64,000 bases of DNA from Candidatus Nitrosopumilus sediminis (GTDB lineage: Archaea; Thermoproteota; Nitrososphaeria; Nitrososphaerales; Nitrosopumilaceae), in assembly GCF_000299395.1 (NCBI RefSeq), contig NC_018656.1, positions 1,488,001-1,552,000 of the forward strand, written 5' to 3'. Shown here in pieces: positions 1,791 through 7,188 of the stretch; the first letter of the stretch is position 1; each line of letters starts with the position of its first letter. The notes beneath the pieces were generated by a model. The model searched no databases, had not been told where the DNA came from, and worked only from the letters and a program-made list of their open reading frames with translations. The position numbers and the translations under genes were made by a program.

Positions 1791-4442
1791 TTATCCAGAA
1801 GTACAACCACTGTATCCACATTCAATGCAGATACTACAACCTTCAACAAATACTAGATTGTTTTTACATGTTGGACATAGACGATCTTCAGAAACCTCTT
1901 CAATTTTCGGAGGTTCTAATTTGATTTCTTCATCATGTACCTTTAATGCAAGTGCAGCATTAACTTGAGACTTGATGTATGGGTTGGTGATTTTTGTAGT
2001 CACATATTCAGTCATGTAATCACTTGGAGATACGTCAAACGTCTTTGTTGCATTCTCGTTTGTCATGTGAAGAACTTGTTTGTGTCTAGAGCCATCACGA
2101 TAAACAGTCATTCCTTTTAGACCAATTTCGTGTGCCAATAGATATGCAGATTTCACATCTTCTACTGTTACATCATATGGCATGTTGATTGTTTTTGCAA
2201 TTGCATTTCCAATCCAATCTTGCCATACACCTTGAGCCATTAGATGATCAGCCCAATGGATATCCATTGCTGTAACAAAGACATCTTGCATCCATTGTGG
2301 AATCTCTTCAATTCCTTTCAACGAGCCATAGTTGTCTGCAATCTTTTCAAGAATTTCATCACTGTAGAGACCTTCTTCTTTCAGAGCTTCTTCAAGAATC
2401 TTGTTAGTATAGAAGAATCGTCCAACTGTAACTCTCTTTTCAAACACTAGAGCAAATGCAGGTTCCATTCCATTTGAACAGTCTGCAATCATAGATAGTG
2501 TTCCAGTTGGAGCCACTGTAGTGGTTAAGACATTTCTAATACCATGTTTTTGGATTTTCTCAATGAGTGGATCCCATTCATAAGAATGAGAATCTTTTGG
2601 TTTCTCATAGTATCCAGACACAGGGATTTTTCCTTCAGGATATTCTGTTTTTGCACATAATGGGAATTCGCCACGAGCATTAGCAAGTGCAACACTTTCT
2701 TCCATTGAATAGTATGTTAGGGCTTCAGATAGTTTTGATTGTAGTTCATAGCCTTCTTTAGAATTGTATGGAATCTTTAGTCTGTATAACAGATCAGCTA
2801 CTCCCATAACTCCTAGTCCAATTCTTCTAGACTCTTTTGATGCTACATTGATTTCTGGTACTGGATAATTATTTACATCAATGATGTTATCCAAGAATCT
2901 TGTTGTCTTGCGGATAATCTCTTCATATCCTTGCCAATCAAATTCATAAGAACCATCTGCTTGTCTTTTTGCAAGATTTACCAAATTGATAGAACCTAGA
3001 TTGCATGATTCGTATGGATAGAGACTTTGTTCACCACATGGATTTGTAGCTCTTAGTGGGGCTTGTCTAGCTTTTGCAAATACGTTATACTTGTTAATTT
3101 GATCAAAGAAGATCAAACCTGGTTCTGCACTTTTCCATGCAGATAATGCAATTAGATCAATTAGTTGATGTGCATTGATTTCTTTTACAGGTTTTTTGTC
3201 ACGTGGGCTACGTAGGACATAGTTACCATCAGTTGTGTTTACAAGTGCATGCCAAAAGTCTTCCCAGATTCCAACACTTATGTTGAAGTTCTCCAAAACT
3301 CCTGCCTCGGTTTTGTTTGTGATGAATTTTTCAACATCAGGATGCCATGCTTCAATGATTCCCATGTTTGCACCACGTCTTTTTCCACCTTGTTTTACAA
3401 CTTCAGTTACAGTATTGATGATATTCATGAAAGATACGGGGCCGGATGCAACGCCAGATGTTGAGGCTACAATATCACCTTCTTCACGAAGATCCGAATA
3501 ATTGATTCCAACTCCACCGCCAGACTTGAAGATTAATGCTGCATCAGAAGTTGATTTCATGATTTCTTCCATGCCATCATTCATTCCAAGTACAAAGCAT
3601 GCTGAGAGCTGTCCTAGTCTTCCACCTGCATTCATCATTGTTGGTGAATTGGGTAGAAAGTCTTGTGCAGTCATCATCTGGAAGTATTCAGTAATTTTAT
3701 CTGCATACACTTCGAGTTTCTTTCCTGCTAGGAGTGTCAAAAGATCTTTGAAACTTATTTTCATCTGACCTTTGCTTGCAAGAGTCACATAGTGATTGAT
3801 TAAAGCTCTAAAATGCCATTTGTTGAAGAAATAATCTCCAACTTTGAATTTATAATCAAAGGCATCTAGTTTTTCAAGATAAGATTTTGCTTCATCTATA
3901 TCCTGTTTGTTATTTCCAGATTTATCAAATATTTGAGAATCATAAAGCATGTCACCAATTCCTACTAGAATTGCGACTCTTTCAAACATTTGAGTTGGAG
4001 ATTCAATAATCTCACTTTTGGAATTTCTAAAAAGATATCTTGAGGCTAGAACTCTAAGACAGTTCAAGTCAAATTTCTTTGAGACTGGATCAAGGGTCTT
4101 TAGATTCAAGACCTTCATTTTTTCATCTCTTAATTTCCTTCTCTCATGTCTATAGACGATGTATGCTTTTGCAATATCGCTATTGCCACTATCAATTAAA
4201 GTAGATTCTACAATATCTTGAATATCTTCAACTGTAGGTGATCTAGAGCTAGTAAATCCTTGCTCAACTAACTTGTTAACTACATCATTTGCTAGTTTGT
4301 CGGCAACGCCACGGTCGGCTTTAGAGGTGGCTGCCAATGCCCGATAAATGGCATTTGAAATTTTATCTTTATTGAAAGCCGTTACTGCGCCACTGCGCTT
4401 ACGGATCTCAGTGATCGTATTTTCTATTTGTGAATTGTCCAT
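1791..4442 (-). CDS. nrdJ: adenosylcobalamin-dependent ribonucleotide reductase (class II)
   Basis: 883 residues. It reduces ribonucleotides to deoxyribonucleotides with B12 as the radical source. The order is an N-terminal ATP-cone (about residues 13-105, RKRSGAVTAFNKDKI) giving allosteric control by ATP/dATP, then the RNR barrel. The barrel has a conserved cysteine in LSACFVLGM, the radical cysteine in NPCGEQ, the partner motif SCNLGSINL and the phosphate-binding TVAPTGTLSMIADCSNG. The C-terminus carries a cysteine cluster (CPTC, then CSICIECGYSGC) that can relay electrons from thioredoxin-like donors. The gene follows the HTH/ATP-cone RNR-like gene across a 214-base gap holding repeated TGATC motifs. 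Confidence 0.95.
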   Translation of the reverse strand: MDNSQIENTITEIRKRSGAVTAFNKDKISNAIYRALAATSKADRGVADKLANDVVNKLVEQGFTSSRSPTVEDIQDIVESTLIDSGNSDIAKAYIVYRHERRKLRDEKMKVLNLKTLDPVSKKFDLNCLRVLASRYLFRNSKSEIIESPTQMFERVAILVGIGDMLYDSQIFDKSGNNKQDIDEAKSYLEKLDAFDYKFKVGDYFFNKWHFRALINHYVTLASKGQMKISFKDLLTLLAGKKLEVYADKITEYFQMMTAQDFLPNSPTMMNAGGRLGQLSACFVLGMNDGMEEIMKSTSDAALIFKSGGGVGINYSDLREEGDIVASTSGVASGPVSFMNIINTVTEVVKQGGKRRGANMGIIEAWHPDVEKFITNKTEAGVLENFNISVGIWEDFWHALVNTTDGNYVLRSPRDKKPVKEINAHQLIDLIALSAWKSAEPGLIFFDQINKYNVFAKARQAPLRATNPCGEQSLYPYESCNLGSINLVNLAKRQADGSYEFDWQGYEEIIRKTTRFLDNIIDVNNYPVPEINVASKESRRIGLGVMGVADLLYRLKIPYNSKEGYELQSKLSEALTYYSMEESVALANARGEFPLCAKTEYPEGKIPVSGYYEKPKDSHSYEWDPLIEKIQKHGIRNVLTTTVAPTGTLSMIADCSNGMEPAFALVFEKRVTVGRFFYTNKILEEALKEEGLYSDEILEKIADNYGSLKGIEEIPQWMQDVFVTAMDIHWADHLMAQGVWQDWIGNAIAKTINMPYDVTVEDVKSAYLLAHEIGLKGMTVYRDGSRHKQVLHMTNENATKTFDVSPSDYMTEYVTTKITNPYIKSQVNAALALKVHDEEIKLEPPKIEEVSEDRLCPTCKNNLVFVEGCSICIECGYSGCTSG

Positions 4443-4656
4443 TATAATCTCCCCAAAAGGGTTAGAATGAATATGGATATAACTTGTGTGCTCGAAAAAT
4501 TTTGATCTTGCTCTGCTATTAGGTCAATATTTTTAACACCGCTACTATGAACATCATATTGGCATAATATTACTTACAGTTGACGATGATCGCGAAATCT
4601 GAAACTGATCAAAAAATTTTGAAAAATGATCGGAACTAGTTTAACATTTACGATTT
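4443..4656. promoter_or_regulatory. nrdJ upstream region with three TGATC repeats
   Basis: This gap between the RNR-like regulator gene and nrdJ (both minus strand) contains TGATC at 4587-4591, 4606-4610 and 4627-4631. The spacings are 19 and 21 bases, close to two helical turns, so the sites would lie on one face of the DNA. The outer two share ATGATCG and the middle one is the palindrome TGATCA. A TATA-like stretch (GTTATATCC on the minus strand, near 4475-4483) lies 33-41 bases before the nrdJ start. An operator role is inferred from spacing and location. Confidence 0.35.
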
Positions 4657-6846
4657 TCAGACAACGTAAGGGGATTTACACTTTGGACACTTGTCATCAA
4701 ATTGCTCATCTTTGAAACCACACTCACCACAAATTGCAGTATGTCTTACTAGTTTGAATGAAGGTGTAAGTTCAGAAGTTTTCTCTATTGATTTTTTGAT
4801 AGCCTCAATCTTTGCATTTTTGTCAATATCTAATGTCACAAGTAATCCACCATTGAGTAGTTTTGAGAGTTTATTACACTCAGAGATAGGCTCGCTTTTG
4901 TTAGTATAATCAGAGACTTCAGATGCTTTGATTACTACACCTTGAGAATAGAAATCAGATTCCATTGAATTTAGAGATGAATTTTTGCCATATTTTTCGC
5001 CATCAAGGGTTGCAAATCGGGCAGAACCTTCAGTTTCAGTCATGGAAATGGCCACGGTATCACCTAATTCCTTGCCTTTTTTGGCACCTACATCAACTGC
5101 AGTTTCAATGACCTTGTGAAGAATATCTCGACCTTCCTTGTTGTCTTGGAATCCAAGTATGTTAAAGACTGCCTCTTTGAGTCCTACCAAATTTACAACC
5201 AAAGATACAGAACTTCTTTGCATGTATTGTGTATTTTTTGCAAGAATTGGATTGAGACCTCTTCGTGTAAGATCTGAGATCTCTTTCTTTCTTAATGCCA
5301 TAGAAGCTAAGGCAGGTTTCATTAGTAGAGCAAGTCTTGCTCTAAAGTAAGTTTCATCTTTGTTTGATTCAAATGCTAATCTTGGAAGATTAATGGAAAC
5401 AGATTGTAAAGTTATTGAAAGTGGACCAGAGGCCTTTGTTGATCCATTTGTAATTCCATAGCTTGATGTTTGGCCTTTAGCAAACATTACTTTTCCACCA
5501 ATTGAAATAATTTCTGCTACTGCTTGTGATACATCAGTAACTTTTCCTTTATCAGCATCAATTACCAAACCAATTTTTGGAATTGGTGTTATCTTTGCAT
5601 AATTTTTGTATGCATTAATTATTGAATTAATTATTTTTGTATCAGTTCCAAGTTGCAAGCGAATTGAAACATTAGTGCTAGTTTTATTGTATTTTGATGT
5701 TGTGGATGCAGTTGCAAATGCAAAAGTTAATTTTTGTTCAAGTTCTGGAAGTGACTTTGAATGCTTTGTAAATAATGGAACTAAACCATCAAGTACAACT
5801 TCTTGTGAAGCTTCTTTTGAAAGAAGGGCGATAACTACAGACAATGAACTTGTAATTTCATCAAGTTGTTTTGATGCAGGAATTCTTGATACATCAAGAT
5901 ATTTTCCACCAAGATCAATTCCATCTTCAATTAATTCTTTAACGTTAACAAAGATTGTATCAGGAATCATTGACCAGATTCCAGGATTTGAAATATGCAA
6001 GTCGCCAGAAAGATGCGAGTCTGCTACATCTTTTGGTAAAATATTTGTAAGAAGATGTTCAGCAAATACTCGCTGTCCAGCATTAAACAAGAGGCCTTCA
6101 GCACCATTATCTACATTATCTAGATTAGAAATCATTTCTTGAACATCATACACAGGCAAACCTAGGCGTGCGAGTTTGTTCCTATATTCCTCATGGCCAT
6201 GCTCAAGCAGGACAGAATTGACCATTTCACGAATTAATGCGCCTGTAAGATATGTAGTCTGATATTTGTAAATTCTATTTTCAACTTCTTCAGTAATTTT
6301 TTGTGCTAGTTCTAATGGAAGGCTTCCTTCACGAACTAGAGATTGAATAATTTTATGTGAGTTAAATTCCTCAATTGACTCAGATGATGTTCTAACATAC
6401 ATTTTTCCACTTTCAATAATTGATCTTTCTTCAATTTGTCTTGCTAAACTTAGAACAAGTTTTCCAAGATTTGTAATGGTATAACGTCTTTCAGATTTGT
6501 TTAGTGCAACAAGTGATTGTCTAAGTAATTTTCTCAAATGGTATGCAAATTTGCCACTTTCTTTTTTTGACTTGAATCCAGCTAGGGATTTTAGTTCAGA
6601 GTAAGTTAAAGGACCTTTAGAATTCAGGATTCTGAGAATATCAATTCTATTTGGACTTGCCATGACAGAGAAAATCATTCTGACACGTTTTGAAGTAGAC
6701 TGTAATATTCCACCTCGCTTTGGATCTGAATCGTCATCAGAGTCCAAGTCGACATCTAGATCTGCATCATCAATATCTGCATCTAGGTCTGTATCTAAGT
6801 CGGGATCTATATCTAATTCAAGTTCCTCTTTACTTAGTTTCATCAT
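4657..6846 (-). CDS. winged-helix + ATP-cone + anaerobic-RNR-like protein, probably a non-catalytic regulator
   Basis: 729 residues. The order is an Asp/Leu-rich acidic N-terminus (about 8-45), an ArsR-like winged helix (about 52-135, ASPNRIDILRILNSKGPLTYSEL), an ATP-cone (about 148-240), a long domain like class III (NrdD) reductase (SITLQSVSINLPRLAFESN), and a terminal zinc ribbon (CGECG...CPKC). Apart from the four ribbon cysteines I find only one cysteine (SECNK). The MGCR-type thiyl-radical cysteine and the C-terminal glycyl-radical RxxGY loop of NrdD are absent. I infer a nucleotide-sensing transcription factor built on a dead RNR, perhaps controlling the adjacent nrdJ. Databases may simply label it anaerobic RNR. 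Confidence 0.8.
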   Translation of the reverse strand: MMKLSKEELELDIDPDLDTDLDADIDDADLDVDLDSDDDSDPKRGGILQSTSKRVRMIFSVMASPNRIDILRILNSKGPLTYSELKSLAGFKSKKESGKFAYHLRKLLRQSLVALNKSERRYTITNLGKLVLSLARQIEERSIIESGKMYVRTSSESIEEFNSHKIIQSLVREGSLPLELAQKITEEVENRIYKYQTTYLTGALIREMVNSVLLEHGHEEYRNKLARLGLPVYDVQEMISNLDNVDNGAEGLLFNAGQRVFAEHLLTNILPKDVADSHLSGDLHISNPGIWSMIPDTIFVNVKELIEDGIDLGGKYLDVSRIPASKQLDEITSSLSVVIALLSKEASQEVVLDGLVPLFTKHSKSLPELEQKLTFAFATASTTSKYNKTSTNVSIRLQLGTDTKIINSIINAYKNYAKITPIPKIGLVIDADKGKVTDVSQAVAEIISIGGKVMFAKGQTSSYGITNGSTKASGPLSITLQSVSINLPRLAFESNKDETYFRARLALLMKPALASMALRKKEISDLTRRGLNPILAKNTQYMQRSSVSLVVNLVGLKEAVFNILGFQDNKEGRDILHKVIETAVDVGAKKGKELGDTVAISMTETEGSARFATLDGEKYGKNSSLNSMESDFYSQGVVIKASEVSDYTNKSEPISECNKLSKLLNGGLLVTLDIDKNAKIEAIKKSIEKTSELTPSFKLVRHTAICGECGFKDEQFDDKCPKCKSPYVV

Positions 6847-6956
6847 TGCATCTATAGAGTAGGAGTAAATAAGACTTGTGACTAGATTATTTTTTTAAGA
6901 TTTTAGATCATATTTCCTAAAAATGTAAAAAGATCTTTATTGAAGATCAATTTGTA

Positions 6957-7118
6957 TTAATTTTCTTGAACATCCAGTGAAAACTCAGATGTTGAAAGTT
7001 TCTGTCCACATGATGGGCATTTCCCATTTGTTGGATGAAGTACGTCTTTTAGCGATTTTAGCATCTTCATGTTTGTGATCTTTTCACCGCATTTACCACA
7101 TGTAATTTCTACTGACAT
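6957..7118 (-). CDS. 53-aa zinc-ribbon protein
   Basis: A short frame starting with ATG at 7118. The protein has two CxxC knuckles, TCGKCGEKI near the start and GKCPSCGQKL in the middle, typical of a small zinc ribbon. No further domain is visible. It lies between the RNR-like regulator and the DUF35/thiolase pair on the same strand. The cysteine pattern and good codon context support it as real. Function unknown; it may bind nucleic acid or serve as a protein-interaction module. Confidence 0.6.
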   Translation of the reverse strand: MSVEITCGKCGEKITNMKMLKSLKDVLHPTNGKCPSCGQKLSTSEFSLDVQEN

Positions 7119-7188
7119 GGAAATGATCAGATACACAAAATTATTAAGAAAAGATTTTGATTTTTTTTAATAATTCAAGCAAATTATT

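Follow-up and report, generated by a model that had tools for sequence, protein, structure and literature searches.

A putative transcriptional regulator derived from an inactive class III ribonucleotide reductase, encoded upstream of nrdJ in Candidatus Nitrosopumilus sediminis

Gene and domains at the nrdJ locus

The window analysed here is a stretch of 64,000 nucleotides from the genome of Candidatus Nitrosopumilus sediminis, which is available as a single contig of 1.69 Mb. On the reverse strand, an open reading frame at 4657..6846 (start ATG, stop TGA) encodes a protein of 729 amino acids which joins a winged helix, an ATP-cone, an inactive barrel of the NrdD type and a zinc ribbon. Downstream on the same strand follows nrdJ (1791..4442), and the placement of the gene directly upstream of nrdJ by an earlier note on this DNA was confirmed, with a gap of 214 bp. 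The nrdJ gene encodes an adenosylcobalamin-dependent class II ribonucleotide reductase (RNR) with its own ATP-cone and is the only RNR gene of the genome. The spacer between both genes (4443..4656) is presumed to contain the promoter and operator region of nrdJ. On the other side, a short reverse-strand frame at 6960-7186 with a CxxC...CxxC pattern (CGKCGEKITN...CPSCGQKLS), apparently a small zinc-ribbon protein, ends approximately 100 bp upstream of the larger gene.

All parts of the 729-residue protein are given here with their reverse-strand coordinates. An acidic N-terminal tail (residues 1-45; 6712..6846) is predicted to be disordered (pLDDT 40-54). It is mostly restricted to the genus and its close relatives and is missing in many homologues, whose matches start near residues 28-44. 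The winged helix-turn-helix comprises residues 47-132 (6451..6708), with Pfam matches at 58-132 to DUF7347 (40.6 bits, cut-off 27.6) and HTH_20 (32.8 bits, cut-off 27). The ATP-cone comprises residues 148-232 (6151..6405) and is matched by PF03477 over residues 149-221 with 35.6 bits at a cut-off of 25.8, so that both domains described in the earlier note are found above their Pfam cut-offs. Across classes, the ATP-cone is the best-conserved domain (mean pairwise identity 0.57). Its loop, VRTSxxxIEEF, lacks the glycine of the usual KRDG-type loop and thus the ligand preference could differ.

The barrel of the class III RNR type (residues 244-702; 4741..6117) is catalytically dead; it is recognised by PF13597 and by superposition on T4 NrdD. 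The NRDD profile (PF13597) matches residues 244-725 with 97.3 bits (E 1.2e-27, cut-off 26.2) and is covered from position 4 to 529 of 562; the final 33 columns, corresponding to the glycyl loop, are absent. All scores of the NCBIfam NrdD equivalogs are far below cut-off, for example 88.9 versus 326. The C-terminal zinc ribbon, CxxC...CxxC, is located at residues 706-723 (4678..4731), and as the chain stops right after it, the glycyl-radical loop following this ribbon in NrdD is absent. As stated in the earlier note, the cysteines are limited to the ribbon (706, 709, 720, 723) and one isolated residue within 'ISECNKL', giving five in total; the isolated one is not conserved among homologues. 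In genus g19 (L214, C-terminus of 4821-6896, and genomes G019, G064, G078, G084 and G102) the zinc ribbon is absent, matches stop near residue 700 and some sequences have an in-frame TAA. Hence, the ribbon is either dispensable or was recently lost in this genus.

Reductase fold and loss of the catalytic set

An AlphaFold2 model of the protein, built with 61 homologues, reached a pLDDT of 87. Class III RNRs were the top-ranked structures for this model in Foldseek and VIA-align comparisons. The superposition on T4 NrdD (1h78) yielded a Z score of 30.0 and an rmsd of 2.9 Å over 441 residues, supporting the class III-like fold claimed previously, and the ATP-cone-bearing NrdD of S. thermophilus (9d3x) gave a Z score of 30.2. 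The same class III chains are found by the family profile, with an E-value of 6.5e-36 to 9d3x.

In the NrdD of P. copri, the finger loop bears the radical cysteine and a loop C-terminal to the zinc site bears the radical glycine, while the substrate is contacted by an NxN flap (PMC11226230). The alignment of the 61 homologues with 17 intact NrdDs of the same phylum allowed us to compare the catalytic columns. The first active-site cysteine is present in all 17 intact NrdDs and in none of the homologues. At the finger-loop tip (Gly464-Ile465; 5452..5457, reverse strand) the thiyl-radical cysteine is replaced by Ile465; Leu, Ile, Val or Phe occupy this position in most homologues and Cys in two, whereas the preceding Gly464 is retained in 55 of the 61. 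The radical glycine, present in 16 of 17 intact NrdDs, occurs in one homologue, and for the NxN flap (17/17) we detected no genuine case. Within the catalytic set, only the Asn of the NLPR motif (Asn486; 5389..5391, reverse strand) is retained, in 61 of 61 sequences. The barrel also keeps an invariant Arg610 and Asp615. None of the homologues carries the full catalytic set. Thus the earlier observation that the protein lacks both the thiyl cysteine and the glycyl loop was confirmed, and neither superposition nor alignment placed a catalytic cysteine and glycine in position.

A divergent reductase or glycyl radical enzyme that is still active, its radical site having moved, would be compatible with the intact fold, with the invariant NLPR Asn and with the exceptions mentioned above, Cys at the thiyl position in two homologues and Gly at the glycyl position in one. 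However, the catalytic columns led us to reject an active enzyme; in addition, the single cysteine outside the ribbon is not a conserved one, and the activase NrdG (TIGR02491) was not found above cut-off in the genome, where the best match has 37 bits against a cut-off of 126. We regard this explanation as highly improbable. The homologues score above the Pfam cut-off for NRDD and may easily be labelled as anaerobic reductases in annotations, falsely implying that aerobic nitrifiers synthesise DNA anaerobically.

In other classes, the homologues often possess a remnant of the glycyl loop, in most cases lacking the glycine itself (FSRSSATYIP, FSRVSAKHLP and YGRLTTRYET, compared with YSRVVGYLRP in an intact enzyme), and those in the class of the window end at the ribbon. 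From this we infer that catalysis was probably lost first and that the loop vanished afterwards in the lineage of the window.

The genome encodes no other protein with PF13597 and no other NrdD. ATP-cones were detected in NrdJ, in the putative regulator and, below cut-off, in a frame of 279 codons. There is no match to NrdR (TIGR00244) in the genome and, together with this inventory of ATP-cones, it follows that the genome is without NrdR.

Distribution, selection and gene neighbourhood

The distribution check across archaea proposed in the earlier note was run within the phylum. Orthologues were detected in 114 of 121 genomes of the family, including 84 of the 85 with good quality, and in 233 of 250 genomes of the class, some of them by weak matches only. 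Many families in other classes of the phylum, presumably Bathyarchaeia-like groups, show strong matches over the winged helix and the cone. In a maximum-likelihood tree, the 61 homologues are placed on one side and the intact NrdDs on the other, with a branch support of 100; this is consistent with a single origin and, for an unrooted tree obtained by a quick method, does not amount to proof. The only match in IMG/VR (L256) is an intact-looking NrdD that was matched through its ATP-cone, and a virus-borne version was discarded.

NrdR was found above cut-off in one family alone (f20) and in no genome sampled from the class of the window. In family f20, less than 1 kb usually separates nrdR from an intact nrdD (G455:C29:32793-35320, G480:C11:87590-90120 and others), and the pseudo-NrdD regulator is also retained, elsewhere in the genome. 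The nrdR-nrdD pair of this family appears to be a second system gained by horizontal transfer.

The gene is under purifying selection. The median dN/dS from 68 Nitrosopumilaceae sequences is 0.093 for the whole gene and 0.068 for nrdJ. Among the individual domains, the winged helix (0.0088) is constrained most, ahead of the cone (0.033), the ribbon (0.070) and the barrel (0.112); strongest constraint on the DNA-binding module is what one would expect of a regulator, not of a remnant enzyme. A gene in decay would account for the frameshifts or stops in a few genomes and for the missing ribbon of genus g19; against this, retention in nearly all family genomes of good quality and the low dN/dS ratio rule out a pseudogene as well as a fortuitous open reading frame, and we give decay practically no credence. 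Broken copies, with a frameshift or stop due to sequencing error or real, were seen in a 99% complete genome (G001:C1:1756007-1758063) and in a metagenome-assembled genome (L040:1825-4029).

These values also bear on the idea that the protein is an inactive regulatory subunit, which binds the NrdJ (or NrdD) protein to adjust how active it is or where it is localised, DNA binding playing a secondary part. The barrel fold common to the protein and its genomic partner, the co-location of the genes and the invariant barrel residues speak for it. However, it is the winged helix that is most constrained and present throughout the family, and NrdJ retains its own ATP-cone and thus has its own activity switch. 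A regulatory subunit of this kind seems to us rather improbable.

In ammonia oxidisers, the regulator gene is followed by nrdJ, which is convergent in one family (L193, L217). In other classes, the gene is followed by an intact nrdD (L175, L180), by nrdJ (L165), or by a glutaredoxin-like gene and an intact nrdD in this order (L159, L160, L170). Where an RNR gene adjoins, the linkage is independent of RNR class. The glutaredoxin/NrdH-like gene of the three latter loci (L160:3736-4098) precedes an nrdD of the QCC finger-loop type, and its product is a candidate reductant for the adjoining NrdD. Most loci from other classes have no RNR gene within the few kilobases of flank that were fetched. The aspartate carbamoyltransferase genes pyrB and pyrI are located near the regulator gene in 23 and 14 of 57 loci, respectively; this proximity is seen across classes, and the strand is mostly the opposite one. 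With RNR genes and pyrB/pyrI as neighbours, the surroundings often belong to nucleotide metabolism.

The pyr genes and the many loci of other classes without a nearby RNR gene would fit a DNA-binding nucleotide sensor with its main targets elsewhere, for example among the genes of pyrimidine synthesis or in a broad regulon for replication and growth, so that the adjacency to nrdJ would be ancestral synteny. This is unlikely in our view. The adjacency tracks the RNR class that is present, be it nrdJ or nrdD and including the nrdD operon with glutaredoxin, and in ammonia oxidisers the upstream regions of the regulator gene and of nrdJ have a palindrome in common, which is described below.

Candidate operator, proposed mechanism and relation to known systems

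An expectation-maximisation motif search in the nrdJ upstream regions of 19 diverse genomes revealed the palindrome TCAAAA-TTTTGA, with scores of 37.9 at width 16 (at most 32.8 in 8 shuffles) and 41.2 at width 18 (32.9 in shuffles). It was rewritten as GTCAA-N5/6-TTGAC and then tested upstream of genes that had not been used to find it. Upstream of the regulator gene within the class, none of 200 shuffles was as good. With up to two mismatches the palindrome is present in 9 of 20 regulator upstream regions compared to 11 of 119 control genes from the same loci (Fisher p 0.00028), and L201 has a perfect copy, GTCAAGAAGCCTTGAC, upstream of the regulator gene. At nrdJ, the comparison with other genes was not significant in a small control (3/12, p 0.12), and upstream of regulator genes in other classes no enrichment was observed. 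The palindrome is AT-rich, imperfect and derived from these same nrdJ regions, and we treat GTCAA-N5/6-TTGAC as a candidate operator only.

In the window, the spacer contains the candidate operator GTCAATATTTTTAAC at 4523..4537, with one mismatch to GTCAA-N5-TTGAC, and a second candidate, ATCAAAAAATTTTGAA, at 4608..4623, with two mismatches to GTCAA-N6-TTGAC. A probable TATA box upstream of nrdJ, GTTATATCC (4475..4483, reverse strand), is conserved in 46 aligned intergenic regions. The first candidate operator lies approximately 40 bp upstream of this element, a location that would suit activation and repression alike. The palindromes TATGANNNTCATA and CGATCATCG, also upstream of nrdJ within 4443-4656, are frequent and conserved among Nitrosopumilus relatives; as they are absent from other families, they were not adopted as operator and could be sites of other regulators. 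The motif TGTAAGTCGACTTACA was discarded because it represents the end of the regulator gene's coding sequence. No Rfam match near the threshold of its family, and hence no riboswitch, was found in the intergenic region.

A dead copy of NrdD joined to a DNA-binding domain, encoded beside the gene of a working reductase, probably measures nucleotides and sets the expression of this reductase. With fair confidence we propose a dimeric pseudo-reductase transcription factor, whose cone reads ATP/dATP and thereby sets the binding of the winged helix at nrdJ and at its own promoter. An ancestral NrdD would have acquired an N-terminal winged helix and would have lost the flap, the catalytic cysteines and the radical glycine while being retained as a regulator. 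The NrdD-like barrel may form a dimer in which the two winged helices are kept in register. When the ATP-cone is occupied by ATP or dATP, the quaternary structure would change, as in NrdD and NrdR, and this change would switch winged-helix binding to a palindrome of the GTCAA-N5/6-TTGAC type, located upstream of the regulator's own gene and of the RNR gene, which is nrdJ in this genome and nrdD in some other classes. Such a switch is plausible because the oligomeric state of both NrdR and NrdD changes with ATP versus dATP (PMC9110341, PMC12176259, PMC11226230). The strong constraint on the winged helix suggests sequence-specific DNA binding. The invariant residues Asn486, Arg610 and Asp615 are not obviously needed by a pure scaffold, which counts against the proposed mechanism; they leave room for a second nucleotide site in the barrel. 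The suggestion of the earlier note, a nucleotide-sensing regulator of RNR genes similar to NrdR, gains support as a hypothesis, rather than as a demonstrated function, from the fold, the catalytic loss, the constraint on the winged helix, the RNR linkage, the missing NrdR and the shared palindrome.

To our knowledge, the means by which NrdR-less archaea adjust expression of their essential RNR has not been established. The family described here is near-universal in the sampled ammonia-oxidising archaea, which count among the most numerous microorganisms in the ocean, and would be a candidate for their missing RNR regulator. NrdR itself is described as rare in archaea (PMC9110341, PMC12176259). 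In the literature, subscription papers and preprints aside, we found no prior description of such an RNR regulator or pseudoenzyme. More tentatively, and with slightly less than even confidence, a single conversion, at an early point in the history of a major archaeal phylum, may have turned a class III RNR into a transcription factor which senses the products of its former reaction and controls the current reductase of the cell. This would be a second, independent solution of RNR control besides NrdR, with the inactive barrel possibly serving as a second deoxynucleotide sensor. With the relic glycyl loops of other classes as apparent intermediates, the family would clearly exemplify how an enzyme can become a gene regulator.

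NrdD is among the closest known systems. The cone, the barrel, the C-terminal zinc site and the NLPR Asn are common to the protein and the NrdDs of S. thermophilus (9d3x) and P. copri (8p23), T4 NrdD (1h78) being without a cone, and Z scores are around 30. In contrast to NrdD, the protein has an additional winged helix and lacks the NxN flap, the first cysteine, the thiyl cysteine, the glycyl loop and an NrdG partner above cut-off; judged by these features, it is a homologue that does not function as an NrdD. The neighbouring class II enzyme NrdJ shares the ATP-cone and a distant homology of the barrel and is, unlike the protein described here, an intact B12-dependent enzyme.

The winged helix, above cut-off for DUF7347 and HTH_20, resembles the ArsR-like/DUF7347 regulators of archaea. 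Two DUF7347 proteins (L205:3980-5395, L208:1659-3140) carry a glycine-containing beta-repeat tail and no Pfam ATP-cone. Their tails are unrelated to the ATP-cone and pseudo-reductase fused to the winged helix here, and they belong to a different regulator family.

In bacteria, RNR genes are controlled by NrdR, a protein unrelated to the pseudo-reductase. Like NrdR (TIGR00244), a repressor of RNR genes composed of a zinc ribbon and an ATP-cone, the putative regulator joins a DNA-binding domain to an ATP-cone, is linked to RNR genes and is expected to read ATP/dATP. However, the DNA-binding domain of NrdR is an N-terminal zinc ribbon instead of a winged helix, and NrdR has neither the 460-residue NrdD barrel nor the C-terminal ribbon. 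The protein is not NrdR and, by analogy, may work like it.
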